Below, one piece after another: positions 38,086-45,476 of a DNA stretch of 47,104 bases (its first letter is position 1; every line of letters starts with the position of its first letter). Source of the DNA: Bacteroidales bacterium (GTDB taxonomy: Bacteria > Bacteroidota > Bacteroidia > Bacteroidales > VadinHA17); contig WOYX01000006.1 in assembly GCA_011620595.1 (NCBI GenBank), positions 171 to 47,274 on the forward strand. The letters run 5' to 3'. The notes beneath the pieces are model-generated. The model saw only the letters and a program-made list of their open reading frames with translations. It did no database searches and was not told where the DNA came from. A program made the position numbers and the translations under genes.

Positions 38086-40323
38086 ATGGCAACACGCAGG
38101 CAATTCATCAGGATCTCGGCAATGGGTGCAGGCGCGGTAGCTGCGGGTGCGGCGGGTATCAGGCTCTTTGGTTCAGCTCTCACTGACGGACAGAAGGCCA
38201 CCGTGGCTGCCCTCACCGGCCGTACACCCACATACTGCGAGGTCTGCTTCTGGAAGTGTGCAGGGTGGGTCTACAAGGATGAAAAAGGGACAATACAGAA
38301 GATTATCGGCAACAGCGAAGACCTGAACTGCAACGGCCGCTTGTGTCCCCGCGGCACCGGCGGAGTGGGCATGTACCACGATGAGGACCGTCTCCGCACA
38401 CCCCTGATACGCACCGAGGAGCGTGGCAAGCAGAGTTTTCGCGAGGCTACATGGGAGGAGGCTTTTGATTATATAGCCGAAAAGATCAAGGTCATATCCG
38501 CTGAATACGGTCCTGAATGCCTGGCACTCTTTACTCACGGATCAGGCGGCAAATACTTTTCGACGCTGCTGCACGCTCTGGGCTCACCGCACGTGGCAGC
38601 ACCCTCCTACGCACAGTGCCGCGGACCACGCGAGGTGGCCTTCCAGGCTACCTTCGGAGAGACCATCGAAAGCCCTGAGAGAACCGACATACGCGACACC
38701 CGCTGCCTGGTGCTTATAGGCAGCCACATAGGTGAGAACATGCACAACGGCCAGGTGCAGGAGATGTCGGATGCGATAGACAAGGGGGCTACAATCATCA
38801 CCGTAGACCCACGCTACTCGACAGCCGCCGGCAAGTCAAAATACTGGCTGCCGATAAAACCTGCCACTGACCTGGCGCTGCTGCTGGCATGGATCAACGT
38901 CATCATCACCGAGGAGCTTTATGATAAACCATATGTTGAGAAATATACCTATGGGTTTGAATACCTGAAGGAGCATGTCAGAAACATGACTCCCGAATGG
39001 GCCTACGGCATCACCACCATTGATCCTACAGTCATTCGCGAGACAGCACGTGAGATGGCCAACGCCGCCCCGGCAGTGATCGTTCACCCAGGACGCCACG
39101 TGACATGGTACGGTGATGACACACAACGGATTCGTGCTGTAGCCATCCTGAATGCCCTGCTTGGCTCGTGGGGCCGCAGGGGAGGCTTCTTCCGCCCGGA
39201 GGTTTTCGAACTGCCCGAGCCCCCTCATCCTGCTTACCCGACACCGACGAGATCATGGCGTACGGAGTTTCCCGACCTCTATAAAATGGCTGACGCCGTT
39301 CTGGCAAACGGCCTGTGCGATGCCACCATTCCCGATCCCAGCCGTCACTGCCAGTTCCAGGGCTGGATCGTCAACGGCACCAACCTGATAGAGACACTGC
39401 CCAACCAGGCCAACACCATTGCTGCCATACAGGCGCTGCAGCTGCTGGTGGTCATTGACACCATGCCCATGGAGATAACGGGCTGGGCTGACGTGGTCCT
39501 GCCCGAATGCACCTACCTGGAGAGATACGATGACCTGCGTGTGGGGCCGCACCGCAAACCGCAGATAGCCCTCAGGGCCCCGGCGGCAGAGCCGATGTAC
39601 AACACCAAACCGGCATTCTGGATGGCCAGGGAGCTGGCAAAGAGACTGGGTGTGATTGAATACTTCCCGTTTGAGACAATGGAAGAACAGCTCGACTGGC
39701 AGCTGAAACAGGTGGGGAGCAGCCTTGAGGAGATGAAGAAGATAGGGGTTAAGACTTTCGACCGTCCCTATGATGACCTCTATTTTGCTCCCGATGAGGA
39801 TGTTGAGTTCTATACCGGAACAGGCAAGATAGAGCTCTACTCGCTGGCACTGGAGGAGGCAGGCTATGACCCGCTGCCGAAATACACCAGGCACGAGGAG
39901 CCGCCGGAAGGATACTACCGCCTTAACTACGGTAGGGCCCCGATGCACACCTTCAGCCGTACCTCCAACAACCCCAACCTTACCGACCTGATGGAGGAGA
40001 ACAGCGTGTGGGTCAACCCGCGCGTGGCAAAAGAGTGGGGACTCAGCACCGGACAGTATGTCCATCTGATGAACCAGGACGGCAAACGGTCGGAGTTCCC
40101 GATAAAGGTTAGGGTGACGGAGCGAATACGCTGGGATTCAGTATATATGGTCCACGGCTTCGGCCACGACCAGAAGAAACTGCGACGATGTTACGGTAAG
40201 GGAGCCAGCGACACCAACCTGATAACTAAGGTGCTTGTTGACCCGATCATGGGCGGCACGGGCATGCGGGGCAACTTCGTGACCTTCATTACTGACCTTA
40301 ACGCAGAGGAGGTGGCATCATGA
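38086..40323 (+). CDS. Molybdopterin oxidoreductase catalytic subunit (polysulfide/thiosulfate reductase type)
   Basis: The protein has 745 aa. A Tat signal (TRRQFIRISAMGAG) exports it folded. Cys51, Cys54, Cys58 and Cys87 (CEVCFWKC ... LCPRG) bind the FS0 [4Fe-4S] cluster. The Mo ligand is probably Cys178 in SYAQCRGPREV, as in PsrA/PhsA and not Ser or Sec. The C-terminal molydop-binding domain (NPRVAKEWGLSTGQYVHLMN) is present. Together with the four-cluster ferredoxin and NrfD subunits it forms a periplasmic quinol-linked sulfur-compound reductase; polysulfide, thiosulfate or tetrathionate cannot be told apart here. Its last codon overlaps the start of the ferredoxin gene (ATGA). Confidence 0.9.
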   Translation: MATRRQFIRISAMGAGAVAAGAAGIRLFGSALTDGQKATVAALTGRTPTYCEVCFWKCAGWVYKDEKGTIQKIIGNSEDLNCNGRLCPRGTGGVGMYHDEDRLRTPLIRTEERGKQSFREATWEEAFDYIAEKIKVISAEYGPECLALFTHGSGGKYFSTLLHALGSPHVAAPSYAQCRGPREVAFQATFGETIESPERTDIRDTRCLVLIGSHIGENMHNGQVQEMSDAIDKGATIITVDPRYSTAAGKSKYWLPIKPATDLALLLAWINVIITEELYDKPYVEKYTYGFEYLKEHVRNMTPEWAYGITTIDPTVIRETAREMANAAPAVIVHPGRHVTWYGDDTQRIRAVAILNALLGSWGRRGGFFRPEVFELPEPPHPAYPTPTRSWRTEFPDLYKMADAVLANGLCDATIPDPSRHCQFQGWIVNGTNLIETLPNQANTIAAIQALQLLVVIDTMPMEITGWADVVLPECTYLERYDDLRVGPHRKPQIALRAPAAEPMYNTKPAFWMARELAKRLGVIEYFPFETMEEQLDWQLKQVGSSLEEMKKIGVKTFDRPYDDLYFAPDEDVEFYTGTGKIELYSLALEEAGYDPLPKYTRHEEPPEGYYRLNYGRAPMHTFSRTSNNPNLTDLMEENSVWVNPRVAKEWGLSTGQYVHLMNQDGKRSEFPIKVRVTERIRWDSVYMVHGFGHDQKKLRRCYGKGASDTNLITKVLVDPIMGGTGMRGNFVTFITDLNAEEVAS

Positions 40324-40853
40324 GATACGCAATGGCGGTTGATACAAGGAAGTGTGTCGGCTGCAGCGACTGTGTCGTTGCATGCCAGACGGAAAATAAT
40401 GTTCCGATAGGCTTCTGCCGCGACTGGGTGGTGGAGGTGATCGACGGCACCTACCCTCAGCTTGAGATAGAGCTGAGGTCAGAGAGGTGCAACCACTGCG
40501 ACAATGCCCCCTGTGTAAGATGCTGCCCTACAGGCGCAAGTCATATCGTCGAGGGCGGCGTGGTGCTGGTAAAACCCAACAAGTGCATAGGCTGCGGCGC
40601 CTGCATAGCCTCATGCCCCTATGACGCACGCTTCCCCCATCCGAAGGGATATGTTGACAAATGCACCTTCTGCATCCACCGCGTAAGGGAGGGGATGAAA
40701 CCGGCATGCGTCGCTGTGTGCCCCACCAAATGTATGTACTTCGGTGATCTTGAAGATCCCAACAGTGACGTGAGCGTGGTGCTGAAAAAACGCAAGTACA
40801 AGACACTGATACCCGAAGCCGGGACCAAACCGCAATTGTATTTTCTGATCTGA
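40320..40853 (+). CDS. Four-cluster ferredoxin subunit (PsrB/NrfC-like)
   Basis: The protein has 177 aa. Sixteen-cysteine pattern for four [4Fe-4S] clusters: CVGCSDCVVAC, CNHCDNAPCVRCCP, CIGCGACIASCP, and CTFC with CVAVCPTKC. It moves electrons from the NrfD-type anchor to the molybdenum subunit. No export signal of its own, so it is probably carried out with the Tat-exported partner. It is translationally coupled to the upstream gene. Confidence 0.95.
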   Translation: MRYAMAVDTRKCVGCSDCVVACQTENNVPIGFCRDWVVEVIDGTYPQLEIELRSERCNHCDNAPCVRCCPTGASHIVEGGVVLVKPNKCIGCGACIASCPYDARFPHPKGYVDKCTFCIHRVREGMKPACVAVCPTKCMYFGDLEDPNSDVSVVLKKRKYKTLIPEAGTKPQLYFLI

Positions 40854-40860
40854 GCAGACG

Positions 40861-41802
40861 ATGAACGAAGAACTGATTATCAGCGGAAGAGAGAACCTGA
40901 TGGTTGACCCGCAACTGCATATCTGGCACTGGCCGATACCTCTATACCTGTTTCTGGGCGGACTGGCGGCAGGCGTACTCTTCTTTGCCGCACTGTACTA
41001 TCTGATGGGCAAGGAGGAGCAGTACCGCACAGCAGTGCGCAGGGTGCCCTTCATTGCACCGATAGCACTGGTGTTAGGACTGGCGGCACTCTTTTATGAC
41101 CTGAACCACAAGGCCTTCTTCTGGCAGCTCTATACGACTATCAGGCTTGAGTCGCCCATGTCATGGGGAGCCTGGACTCTGCTGGTCATCACCATCGCCT
41201 CCTTCATCTGGTGTGCACTGCATATCAGGGAGTTTTTTCCGAAATGGGACTGGAAATACAGGTGGCTCAAAGATCTGGAGTCATTCTTCAACAGGTACAA
41301 GAAGCCACTGGCATGGGTGATGCTGATCTTTGCCATCATCACAGGGGTTTATACGGGCATTCTGCTGTCAGCATTCAATGCCAGGCCGCTGTGGAACACC
41401 TCGGTGCTCGGGCCGCTCTTTCTGGCATCAGGACTCTCGGCGGGGGCTGCAGCGATAGTGCTCTCCTCAAAGAACAGGGAGGAGAGACTACTCTTCACAA
41501 AGATAGACCTCATAATCCTGGGTACGGAGTTGTTTCTTATAATACACATGTTCATGGGCTTCCTCGCCAGCACCCAGGTGCAGATAGAAGCAGCACAGCT
41601 CTTCCTGGGAGGACCCTACACAATGGTGTTCTGGATATTTGTGGTGATACTCGGGATAATTATTCCGGGAGTGCTTGACCTGATGGAGCTGGGAGGTAGG
41701 CATATACCCGCCCTTATTCCCGGAGTGCTTGTACTTATGGGCAGCTTCGCATTCCGCTTTGTATTTGTCTTTGCCGGCCAGGTAAGCCGCTGGCTCTACT
41801 GA
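40861..41802 (+). CDS. NrfD/PsrC-like quinol-interacting membrane subunit
   Basis: The protein has 313 aa with about eight membrane helices (for example PLYLFLGGLAAGVLFFAALY and APIALVLGLAALFYDLNHK). The NrfD family signature region around LYDLNHKAFFWQLYTTIRLE with SPMSWGAW is clear. It oxidises menaquinol and passes electrons to the ferredoxin subunit. 7 bp after the ferredoxin gene. Confidence 0.93.
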   Translation: MNEELIISGRENLMVDPQLHIWHWPIPLYLFLGGLAAGVLFFAALYYLMGKEEQYRTAVRRVPFIAPIALVLGLAALFYDLNHKAFFWQLYTTIRLESPMSWGAWTLLVITIASFIWCALHIREFFPKWDWKYRWLKDLESFFNRYKKPLAWVMLIFAIITGVYTGILLSAFNARPLWNTSVLGPLFLASGLSAGAAAIVLSSKNREERLLFTKIDLIILGTELFLIIHMFMGFLASTQVQIEAAQLFLGGPYTMVFWIFVVILGIIIPGVLDLMELGGRHIPALIPGVLVLMGSFAFRFVFVFAGQVSRWLY

Positions 41803-41826: not shown

Positions 41827-42363
41827 ATGAGCAACAATAAAACAGAAGAGAGAGGCAGACGGTACCTCAACCCCTATGTGGGAGGTGTCCTTCTTGGTCT
41901 CGTACTACTTGCCGCCAACTTCATCTCGGGACGGGGACTGGGGGCCAGCGGAGCAATAAAGAGCGTGGTGGCCACATCAATTGAGATGGTTGATAAGGAT
42001 GCCGTAAACACAATGCCATTTATGGCCGACTATGCCCAGTCACACAGCGGCAGCCCGATGAAGTCATGGCTGGTCTTTGAAATGCTCGGTGTGATTGTTG
42101 GCGGATTCCTGTCCGGCGCCATAGCCGGCCGCCTCAAGCTTAAAGTTGAGCATTCGCCAAAAATAACCTCCCGGCGCAGGCTGGTATTCGCACTGATGGG
42201 AGGGGTGCTCTTCGGCTTCGGCTCACAGTTGGGCCGTGGCTGCACCAGCGGCTCTGCCCTGAGCGGCATGGCAGTACTCTCAATGGGAGGCTTCATAACC
42301 ATGATGGCCATCTTTGGCACTGGCTTCGCGCTGGCATATTTCTTCAGGAGAAACTGGATCTAA
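41827..42363 (+). CDS. YeeE/YedE-family sulfur transporter, first half
   Basis: The protein has 178 aa with five or so membrane helices. The family motif GRGCTSGSALSGMA carries the conserved Cys implicated in passing sulfur (thiosulfate) in E. coli TsuA (YeeE). E. coli has both halves in one chain; here the second half is the next gene (PmpA/PmpB-like arrangement). Following the sulfur reductase by 24 bp, it probably imports or exports the reduced sulfur species. Confidence 0.87.
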   Translation: MSNNKTEERGRRYLNPYVGGVLLGLVLLAANFISGRGLGASGAIKSVVATSIEMVDKDAVNTMPFMADYAQSHSGSPMKSWLVFEMLGVIVGGFLSGAIAGRLKLKVEHSPKITSRRRLVFALMGGVLFGFGSQLGRGCTSGSALSGMAVLSMGGFITMMAIFGTGFALAYFFRRNWI

Positions 42364-42378
42364 CGAAAGGAGAGAACA

Positions 42379-42969
42379 ATGGGACCGCTAGCACCAAACG
42401 AAATAATATCGGAGAACACCAACTTTCTCCTTGCATTCTTCATCGGCATAGCCTTCGGCTGGGTACTCGAGAGCTCCGGCTTCTCGTCGAGCCGCAAGCT
42501 GGCCGGCATCTTCTACGGTTATGACGCCGTGGTACTAAAGGTTTTCTTCACCGGAGCCATCACATGTATGCTGGGGCTGCTCTTCATGAGCCTCTTCGGA
42601 TGGATCGACCTCGACCTGGTATATGTCAATCCGACATATCTCACCTCTGCCATCATCGGCGGAGTGATCATGGGAGCTGGTTTTATCATGGGCGGTTTCT
42701 GCCCCGGCACCAGCTTCTGCGGTGCTGCCATAGGGAAGATAGACGGCATGGTATTCGTAGTCGGACTATTTATCGGCGTCTATGGCTTCGCCTTTACCTA
42801 CGGATGGTGGGAGAAACTCTACTACGCAAATTATCTCGGGGAACCGAAGGTGAGCGAGGCACTGGGGATGAAGGACGGACTTTTCGGGCTGCTGCTCATC
42901 ATTGTGGCCCTTGGCATGTTTGTTGTAGCTGAATGGGCTGAGAAGAAATTCCCAAGGGAGGAGTACTGA
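42379..42969 (+). CDS. YeeE/YedE-family sulfur transporter, second half
   Basis: The protein has 196 aa. The counterpart Cys motif is GGFCPGTSFCGAAIGKIDGM. An N-terminal helix pair matches the N-terminal portion of the family (FLLAFFIGIAFGWVLESSGF). Separated from the first half by 15 bp with a purine-rich AAAGGAGAGAA leader that is a good ribosome binding site, so the split is genuine and not a sequencing frameshift. Confidence 0.87.
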   Translation: MGPLAPNEIISENTNFLLAFFIGIAFGWVLESSGFSSSRKLAGIFYGYDAVVLKVFFTGAITCMLGLLFMSLFGWIDLDLVYVNPTYLTSAIIGGVIMGAGFIMGGFCPGTSFCGAAIGKIDGMVFVVGLFIGVYGFAFTYGWWEKLYYANYLGEPKVSEALGMKDGLFGLLLIIVALGMFVVAEWAEKKFPREEY

Positions 42970-43125: not shown

Positions 43126-43749
43126 ATGAAATCATTAAAATTTCTTGCACTCATTATTATCCCGCTGGGGATAATCATTGCCGCAGTGCCGGCAGATAGG
43201 GTCAGGCACTTTCAGTTAACGGCCGACGAGCTTCTGCAGGAAGCTGGTGCCGGCGTGCAGTTCATCTCACCCGATGTGGTGGCTGACATGCTCGTTCAGA
43301 AGGACCCGTCGCTGCGCCTCATTGACGTACGCACTCCGGAAGAGTTTGACGACTACAGTATGCCGGGTGCTATAAACGTGCCCCTGAGCAACCTGCTGGC
43401 CGATGAGTATACTGACATAATCAACCAGGATGCCTATGTGAATGTATTTTATTCCAACGGTTCGGTCTATGCCAACCAGGCATGGATGATTACCAGGCAG
43501 CTGGGCTATGAGAACAATTTTGTTCTCGAAGGGGGACTGAACTACTGGTTTGGTAACATACTCTCCCCGGAAGAGCCCTCGCAGACCAGTCCCAATGAGG
43601 AGTTTGCGCAATACGACTTCCGCAAGAGTGCCGCTGCGGCACTGGGTGGCGGCGGCGTGGTCAGCACGGAGCCGGATGTGCCGGCAGTGAAAGCCGTGAA
43701 GCCGCCCGTGAGCGCCAAGGCAAAGAAGAAGCCGTCAGGCGGCTGCTGA
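43126..43749 (+). CDS. Exported rhodanese-fold protein with a single, C-terminal cysteine
   Basis: The protein has 207 aa. An N-terminal helix (FLALIIIPLGIIIAAVP) anchors or exports it. Residues ~45-145 are a rhodanese domain (RLIDVRTPEEFDDYSMPGAI, then GLNYW near its end). The active-site loop reads FYSNGSVYA; aligned without gaps, the catalytic Cys is Tyr109 (or Ser110 with a shift), so sulfurtransfer on the usual site is impossible. A flexible Ala/Pro/Lys tail ends in KKKPSGGC, and Cys207 is the only Cys in the protein. This resembles the swinging-arm end of SoxY (GGCGG). It follows the sulfur reductase and transporter genes after 156 bp. A sulfur-carrier role is inferred. Confidence 0.8.
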   Translation: MKSLKFLALIIIPLGIIIAAVPADRVRHFQLTADELLQEAGAGVQFISPDVVADMLVQKDPSLRLIDVRTPEEFDDYSMPGAINVPLSNLLADEYTDIINQDAYVNVFYSNGSVYANQAWMITRQLGYENNFVLEGGLNYWFGNILSPEEPSQTSPNEEFAQYDFRKSAAAALGGGGVVSTEPDVPAVKAVKPPVSAKAKKKPSGGC

Positions 43750-43798: not shown

Positions 43799-43870
43799 GG
43801 CCCTATAGTTCAATGGATAGAACGCGGGTTTCCTAAACCTGAAATCCAGGTTCGATTCCTGGTGGGGCTA
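43799..43870 (+). tRNA. tRNA-Arg(CCT)
   Basis: The 72-nt cloverleaf is complete: acceptor GGCCCTA / TGGGGCT with two G-T wobbles, D-stem GTTC/GAAC, anticodon stem CGGGT / ACCTG with loop TTCCTAA (anticodon CCT at 43832-43834), T-stem CCAGG/CCTGG with loop TTCGATT, and discriminator A. CCA is not encoded. Confidence 0.95.
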
Positions 43871-43871
43871 C

Positions 43872-44069: not shown

Positions 44070-45476
44070 CTAAAAGCTATATTTCATTTTAAACATAAAC
44101 ATATCATAGTTATTCAGTTTCCCAAACAAATTATCTCCTTTTCCGTTAAAAATTGCGGCAGATAAAGCTATTTCGACATTGTCAGTAGCTTTATATGCAA
44201 TTTCCGGTATGTAAACAATAGCATAATTGTCTTTTATTTTGTTCCAGTCAGCTACAATTAAACCTCCACCGATTGGAGCGATTTTTAGCTTTTCATTGAA
44301 AAACTTCTTTTCGTATCTTAAAAAGAAATAGTCATTCAGGTTTTCATTTCCTCTTTCATTAATAAATCCATGCAAGAATTGAAAGTTAATATATGAACCA
44401 TCTGCGAAATTGTAATCGCCACCAATTACAAATTTTATATATGGCTTTGAAGAATCTAAAAGCAATGAATCCATAGTCACCGCAACAGGCGACATTGGAT
44501 AAAAAGCTGATAAATCATTTGTCATAATTACGTCCTTTTCAGGAAAAAATGCAGCAACTTCTGCCCAAAATCCAATTCCGGCTATGCTTGTTGCCATATC
44601 GACTCCAAAAATGTGGGTTCGTGAAAATGAAAGTTGTGAGTTTATATTGGTTCCTCCCATTGCATCGATGGGGATGAAGGTATTTCTTGTGGCGAAAGGT
44701 AATCCGTCATATCCCCAAACATAGCTCAGGGAAAAATCAACTCCTTTTGCAAAACCTTTAAATTTTAACCCTGCGGTTGAACTTGCACCTATTTTATATC
44801 CCGGCATAAGCAGAGTATCTGAAAATTCATTTAAAACCATGCCTTGAGGTAATTCCAAATCAGGTGTCAGCACATTTGCAAAAACACCAACTGGCATATT
44901 TGCCGGCTGGAAAACAGGAATATATACACCCTGTAAAGAGAAGTCACTGCTAAAATAATAATTAAAGCTTATAGCATCTGAACCACGATGACGACCGAAA
45001 TCCAATACATCTTCAAGGTCATATGGATTAAGGTTATCAGTCGGATTTAGCTTATCAGCAGTACCCCATGTAATTCGCTGGCGACCAATTTTTACATCCA
45101 AATTCCCGGTTAGGAATCCATACAATTGAACATATGCTTCCCGGATTTCCAGATTATATGGGTCAACAATTCCCTTGTTGTATAAATCACCCGATGAAGT
45201 AATATTTGGTAAACCTATATTACGTAACCAGACCTCACTATAGAATTTTGAACTGTTGGTGATTTTTTTTTCTAACCTCATGGTAAGACGATTCTCATTC
45301 CATGCCCAATCTTTTTTATCATTGAGCAGGAATCGTTCATCCATTAGTAATTCACCGGAGATTTTCAGTCTGCTTTCATCTTGTTCTTGCGATGTTACAC
45401 TACTTTCTTGTGCTCTGACAATATAAGAGTTCGCCAAAAGCATCATCATCACCGAAATAAATGATAATAGTTTCAT
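44070..45476 (-). CDS. DUF1302-like outer-membrane porin
   Basis: The protein has 468 aa. A signal peptide (MKLLSFISVMMMLLANSYIVRAQ) is followed by a beta-strand-rich body. IGRQRITWGTADKLNPTDNL and NPYDLEDVLDFGRHRG are characteristic of DUF1302/porin-type proteins that often accompany RND (MMPL-type) exporters and lipid-transport genes. It ends in a terminal aromatic strand (MFMFKMKYSF), as outer-membrane barrels do. Same strand as the GT2 and patatin genes (3-bp gap), so one operon. Codons are AT-rich, unlike the rest of the window. Confidence 0.8.
   Translation of the reverse strand: MKLLSFISVMMMLLANSYIVRAQESSVTSQEQDESRLKISGELLMDERFLLNDKKDWAWNENRLTMRLEKKITNSSKFYSEVWLRNIGLPNITSSGDLYNKGIVDPYNLEIREAYVQLYGFLTGNLDVKIGRQRITWGTADKLNPTDNLNPYDLEDVLDFGRHRGSDAISFNYYFSSDFSLQGVYIPVFQPANMPVGVFANVLTPDLELPQGMVLNEFSDTLLMPGYKIGASSTAGLKFKGFAKGVDFSLSYVWGYDGLPFATRNTFIPIDAMGGTNINSQLSFSRTHIFGVDMATSIAGIGFWAEVAAFFPEKDVIMTNDLSAFYPMSPVAVTMDSLLLDSSKPYIKFVIGGDYNFADGSYINFQFLHGFINERGNENLNDYFFLRYEKKFFNEKLKIAPIGGGLIVADWNKIKDNYAIVYIPEIAYKATDNVEIALSAAIFNGKGDNLFGKLNNYDMFMFKMKYSF

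Follow-up and report, generated by a model that had tools for sequence, protein, structure and literature searches.

Different rhodanese-like proteins encoded in one gene cluster of Bacteroidales can carry nearly the same C-terminal tail ending in Gly-Gly-Cys (GGC), while the tails of separate clusters differ. This sharing of a tail within a cluster is new, and it suggests interchangeable arms with one common partner. The proteins concerned are relatives of R, which is encoded in a stretch of 47,104 nucleotides (the window) of contig WOYX01000006.1 from a Bacteroidales bacterium (assembly GCA_011620595.1). Judging from sequence comparison, we think that the R family probably consists of extracytoplasmic, membrane-tethered sulfur carriers, in which a rhodanese body lacking its Cys holds a GGC arm that is read by an operon-specific partner. 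R is the last gene in the run A-B-C-Y1-Y2-R, which has the following features in the window.

38086..40323, plus strand: A, Tat-exported molybdopterin subunit of the Psr/Phs type (profile and structure matches)
40320..40853, plus strand: B, NrfC/PsrB-like 4Fe-4S subunit (profile matches)
40861..41802, plus strand: C, NrfD/PsrC-like membrane subunit (PF03916)
41827..42363, plus strand: Y1, YeeE-family half (profile match to the C-terminal half of PF04143)
42379..42969, plus strand: Y2, YeeE-family half (profile match to the N-terminal half of PF04143)
43126..43749, plus strand: R, membrane-anchored protein of 207 aa with the rhodanese fold and a GGC arm at its C-terminus (ORF translation, profile match)
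43132..43188, plus strand: N-terminal hydrophobic anchor of R, residues 3-21 (the single segment in a hydropathy scan)
43270..43548, plus strand: rhodanese domain of R, residues 49-141 (Pfam PF00581; Foldseek matches to rhodaneses)
43447..43473, plus strand: former catalytic loop FYSNGSVYA, residues 108-116 (Tyr109 in the column of the catalytic Cys)
43567..43746, plus strand: C-terminal linker and arm of R, residues 148-207 (pLDDT below 50 in a poor model; tail analysis)
43738..43746, plus strand: terminal Gly205-Gly206-Cys207 of R (sequence)

The reading frame of R starts with ATG and stops with TGA. The protein belongs to the rhodanese superfamily (PF00581, E 2.5e-13, 50.7 bits against a cut-off of 22.2), and its Foldseek matches are for the most part rhodaneses. 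It has Tyr109 in place of the active-site loop Cys that defines a catalytic rhodanese or thiosulfate sulfurtransferase, and its scores against the PspE families NF007627 (27.1 bits, cut-off 102) and TIGR02981 (24 bits, cut-off 126.3) lie below the NCBIfam cut-offs. The sole Cys is residue 207, preceded by KKKPSGG; both the loop without a catalytic Cys and the lone Cys at the end had been noticed in an earlier reading of this DNA (the sequence-only reading), and both are confirmed. The AlphaFold2 model of R is poor (mean pLDDT 55.1, pTM 0.48; four other models 33-37), so the flexibility of the tail rests more on the sequence than on the model. A longer C-terminus made through selenocysteine or TGA read-through was rejected, the stop after GGC being TGA, TAA or TAG among relatives. 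About 50 bases past the stop codon of R lies a tRNA-Arg gene (anticodon CCT, window 43799-43871), and the gene for a DUF1302 protein, probably an outer-membrane barrel (44070-45476, minus strand), converges on the operon.

Relatives were sampled from 196 related genomes, of which 122 gave matches, and a contig scan gave 39 loci; the search query was full-length R, so that tail-less relatives beyond E 1e-5 may escape. Labilibaculum and Marinifilum, which can be cultured, are among the hosts of the operon. GGC followed by no residue or one ends 138 of the 142 distinct complete family members, as against none of the 1,233 other ORFs at the same loci. These counts take distinct complete ORFs of at least 100 aa, with non-overlapping ORFs regarded as genes and with double rhodaneses (RR) and YeeE fusions excluded from both. 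Cys is the last or second last residue in 9 of the 1,233. The four members that lack the tail are the second copies at loci L106, L107 and L108 and one protein at L127, and no hidden tail was seen in another frame behind the three second copies; the YeeE fusion at L134 has no tail either. When the domains of 102 members are aligned, the residue in the loop column is Tyr in 75, Phe in 12, another hydrophobic residue in the rest and Cys in none, with the second copies at L089 and L098 having a Cys one residue past the column. All 28 rows of a further alignment were picked for having the tail, and its invariant GGC is therefore not independent evidence. A phylum-wide profile search matched 357 of 395 genomes, mostly through ordinary rhodaneses, and its total is not taken as the size of the family.

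The double rhodaneses differ from R in their loops. GGC stands at the end of RR in 11 of 40 cases and is absent there in 29, and the tailed RR proteins have the loop Cys of the second domain in 11 of 11 and that of the first domain in 10 of 11. The sequence-only reading had tied loss of the loop Cys to gain of the terminal Cys; the tie holds within the R family and breaks down in RR, in which loop Cys and GGC tail occur together, so a terminal Cys does not always imply a lost loop Cys. Locus L109 encodes not only two tailed R proteins but also two tailed RR proteins (L109:387-1436 and L109:7028-9503), and the tails of the latter, VYVEEGEVKAGGC and VKKKKEVSEAGGC, differ.

Several features bear on the side of the membrane. 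Subunit A has the Tat signal RRxF in 60 of 63 cases. Where tailed rhodaneses occur in tandem, the first copy (R1) is anchored by an N-terminal helix and has no lipobox-like motif (0/21), while such a motif is present in 4 of 21 second copies (R2) and in 7 of 11 tailed RR proteins. The Tat signal, the lipobox-like motifs and the anchor helix together suggest that the system lies outside the cytoplasmic membrane. The outward membrane anchoring proposed earlier thus agrees with what we see: the proteins look anchored by an N-terminal hydrophobic segment, with the domain presumably outside.

Tandem R1 and R2 are encoded at 23 loci, or 21 after removal of near-duplicates, and only pairs with a tail on both copies were compared. 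Over the last 10 residues before GGC, R1 and R2 have 7.0 of 10 residues in common within loci and 2.75 of 10 between loci, and none of 100,000 permutations reached the observed within-locus sum. Identity of the domains was 25.7% within and 25.5% between loci (p 0.36). Along the tail, the last 10 residues give a strong signal, which weakens toward position -20 and is absent from -50 to -20; the poorest matches are those of L103 (2/10) and L109 (3/10). The tails of RR and R likewise match at 0.68 within and 0.18 between loci (9 loci). R2 forms its own clade (support 0.98, no misplaced tip), and at none of the 21 loci is R2 nearest to its own R1. These matched tails of paralogues are new evidence for an arm that may be read by a partner.

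Could the terminal Cys instead be a relocated catalytic residue, the tail folding back to bring Cys207 into the vacant pocket of the rhodanese domain that bears it, for ordinary sulfurtransferase chemistry in cis? The FYSNG loop stays conserved though its Cys is gone, and the linker, with its 60 or so residues, could span the distance to the pocket. However, the tails match those of other proteins of the operon and not their own domain, and RR bears the tail in addition to its own loop cysteines, which makes this explanation unlikely.

The matching could also have arisen by mere gene conversion, or slippage in repetitive K-rich ends, with no functional partner involved. Synonymous divergence of the tails is below the domain rate (79 codon differences at 189 sites, 106 expected), so that part of the matching may be due to gene conversion, and on these sequences a contribution of gene conversion to the R1/R2 matching is likely. 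Yet codons differ at 90 of the 210 identical tail residues of R1 and R2, so the amino acids are clearly under selection and were held while the codons drifted. In addition, 9 of 10 tail residues are identical between L093 and L138, which belong to one genome but are unlinked, each on its own contig, and the residues after the terminal Cys agree between R1 and R2 in 21 of 21 loci. As a full account of the matched tails, gene conversion or slippage seems quite improbable to us.

Nor do we favor the view that the tail directs processing, lipidation or sorting, with the Cys as attachment point, which we regard as distinctly unlikely. As with sorting signals, one C-terminal motif with a basic stretch is common to several proteins, but R is already anchored N-terminally and two systems in the same genome have different tails. 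Type I tails and those of type III (the YeeE-only class of loci) share 1-3 of 10 residues in the 10 genomes in which both were read, and the octaheme-type fusion and the molybdenum-type R of L029 differ in their tails; distinct tails for the systems of one genome are more readily explained by a system-specific partner than by a single processing enzyme serving the whole cell. Nor did further clients of the tail turn up among the sites of the pattern KKxxxGGC, which covers some tail types only and met known tails in 9 of 20 genomes. It occurs at 47 sites in these 20 genomes, as against about 36 for a reversed control pattern; all 47 were placed, 7 of them in R or RR genes already recognized, and only R and RR genes end ORFs of at least 100 codons there, while one 40-codon and one 10-codon open frame end at the motif or one residue past it. 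Finally, a structural disulfide linking R1, R2 and RR through their terminal Cys would fit the matching of tails within an operon, as symmetric pairing, and the apparent extracytoplasmic location, but is very improbable, as most operons of the window type have a single tailed protein whose tail is equally conserved.

A sulfur-carrying arm read by a partner from the same operon therefore remains our preferred explanation, and the genes around R supply candidates for that partner. The nearest solved structure to A is 2vpw, deposited as thiosulfate reductase (E 2e-199), and A scores 453.4 bits against the thiosulfate reductase PhsA family PRK15488, under the NCBIfam cut-off of 694. The Cys motif RGC[TM]SG of Y1 is kept in 95 of 99 relatives and the motif GG[FY]CPGT of Y2 in 108 of 110. 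The neighbors named in the sequence-only reading, a molybdenum reductase and YeeE-type transporters, are confirmed as a Psr/Phs-like molybdenum subunit, an FeS subunit, an NrfD protein and two YeeE halves. No TusA match was found across the whole genome of the window, with the control positive in 11 of 14, so that YeeE may lack its usual carrier in the cytoplasm; this genome accordingly has no YTD cluster in the sense of one that includes TusA. A search of it for SoxY gave no match, as did the same search of control genomes. A second tailed rhodanese is encoded beside a second YeeE pair on another contig of the same genome (C44, L140:8263-8871); its tail, KLDGGCQ, is unlike that of the window R, and the locus also holds a small rhodanese-like protein and a double rhodanese.

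Distinct R proteins are encoded at 115 loci. For 91 of them the sequence extends at least 2 kb upstream, and in 90 of these a YeeE half lies upstream of R or is fused to it, the exception being L138; the association with the YeeE-type transporter genes named in the earlier reading is therefore borne out. At least 4.5 kb of upstream sequence is available for 84 loci: genes of the molybdenum operon are present at 63 of them and genes for octaheme cytochrome or cytochrome b at 7, with both kinds at 4, and 2 fall outside all classes; the octaheme protein is tetrathionate-reductase-like (match to 1sp3, E 4.4e-126). The remaining class, type III, accounts for 16 of the 84 and consists of Y1-Y2-R, a small protein and RR, with no redox enzyme within the flanks read. 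R is thus not constantly close to an NrfD-type reductase, as had been supposed, and with the loop cysteines of RR this means that the predictions of the earlier reading hold in part only. At type III loci (L115-L142), a converging gene of family 10, with a weak RHS-repeat match, lies beside RR in 23 loci.

Gene A (E <=1e-180) is present in 92 of the 196 related genomes, and 89 of these 92 have a strong R match (E <=1e-31, a threshold chosen after the type III scores were known). In the three others (G045, G115 and G105) the contig ends within A or about 1 kb past it. A strong R match occurs in 7 of the 104 genomes without A. The tie between R and the Psr-type reductase is one of gene linkage, and type III loci are without the reductase. 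Four tailed proteins are fusions of R to Y2, and the matches listed from outside the order include 15 further Y2-R fusions, at least 14 of them beside octaheme cytochrome and cytochrome b. As the most constant neighbor, fused to R in several lineages, YeeE stays a strong candidate partner.

We also read 40 stretches outside the order, chosen from the best matches listed in the phylum-wide search and hence not a random sample. Among these best-match stretches, 18 have a molybdenum operon with an EGC (17) or DGC (1, L228) tail, 16 have an octaheme cytochrome with a GGC tail, which is on a YeeE-R fusion in 15, and 4 have a molybdenum operon with a GGC tail; L203 is cut off and shows YeeE only, and the protein of L224 ends in Cys without glycines. 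In this sample the type of tail therefore goes with partner and lineage. The arms of the EGC loci (L208-L241, from other Bacteroidota classes) end in KKK[KR]EGC, and a molybdenum operon adjoins in 18 of 18 read.

For the mechanism, we infer the side of the membrane, the loading with sulfur, the partner that reads the arm and the direction of transfer. The Cys-less rhodanese fold would serve for docking or anion binding, and the long flexible Gly-Gly-Cys tail would be the working arm. Its terminal thiol, loaded by RR, by YeeE or by free sulfur species, would take up sulfur as a persulfide or thiosulfonate and pass it on, so that the arm gives sulfur to, or takes it from, a socket encoded in the same operon. 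The last 10-20 residues would be an address recognized by the partner. The likeliest candidates for this role are the molybdenum reductase of the Psr/Phs type, the octaheme cytochrome and the split YeeE channel, which would be contacted at its outer mouth. If a partner from the same operon reads this address, R1, R2 and RR of one operon should be alike and those of other operons should differ, even in one genome. More tentatively, and with somewhat less than an even chance in our estimate, the system may be a modular relay, in which one operon-specific peptide of 10-20 residues with a GGC end is mounted on 2-4 extracytoplasmic bodies (R1, R2, RR and the YeeE fusion) as a plug for one socket.

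Known sulfur carriers resemble R in part. Sud of Wolinella succinogenes is a polysulfide-sulfur transferase that serves the polysulfide reductase PsrABC, and its working Cys sits in the loop. Its structure, 1qxn, ranks 30th among the Foldseek matches of R (E 2.5e-3). Like Sud, R has the rhodanese fold, and it is located in a Psr-like operon; unlike Sud, it lacks a loop Cys and is equipped with a membrane anchor and an arm ending in Cys. SoxY carries sulfur on a C-terminal Gly-Gly-Cys swinging arm, the sequence of which is given as GGCGG in PMC6067878. R also has a C-terminal Gly-Gly-Cys, but ends at the Cys or, in relatives, one residue on, without GGCGG, and has a rhodanese domain instead. 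Membership of R in the SoxY family was rejected, with no PF13501 match, Rhodanese as the only match at E <=0.001, and no GGCGG end.

According to PMC11073785, YeeD acts at the cytoplasmic side of YeeE as a fourth cysteine. YeeD and TusA resemble R as small Cys carriers that work with YeeE, but the fold of R is unrelated and R appears to be on the opposite side of the membrane. Section 6 of PMC11582611 describes PmpA and PmpB as split YeeE halves, and Y1 and Y2 are similar in matching the two ends of PF04143; they differ in that their neighbors are genes of the Psr-like or octaheme kind and rhodaneses with arms, and in that Y2 also occurs fused to R. The YTD cluster of sulfur disproportionators combines a YedE-type transporter with sulfur carriers, as given in PMC9751629 and PMC12998232. 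The carriers of YTD are TusA and DsrE, whereas here they would be tailed rhodaneses. By analogy, the system may work like a SoxY arm on a Sud-like body, having the defining features of neither. Among the matches listed in the open-access literature, titles and abstract openings contain no description of a rhodanese that ends in a GGC arm.

Sulfane sulfur is a reactive species, and to our knowledge little is understood of how proteins hand it to one another outside the cytoplasm, Sox excepted. If our explanation is true, the R family would point to a missing carrier for sulfur respiration of the Psr/Phs and octaheme types and for split YeeE transporters, and this widespread Bacteroidota family would offer a natural data set on how carriers recognize enzymes. 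If the relay is modular as well, the carriers would be interchangeable, and arms and socket would coevolve as an address code that differs between the systems of one cell.
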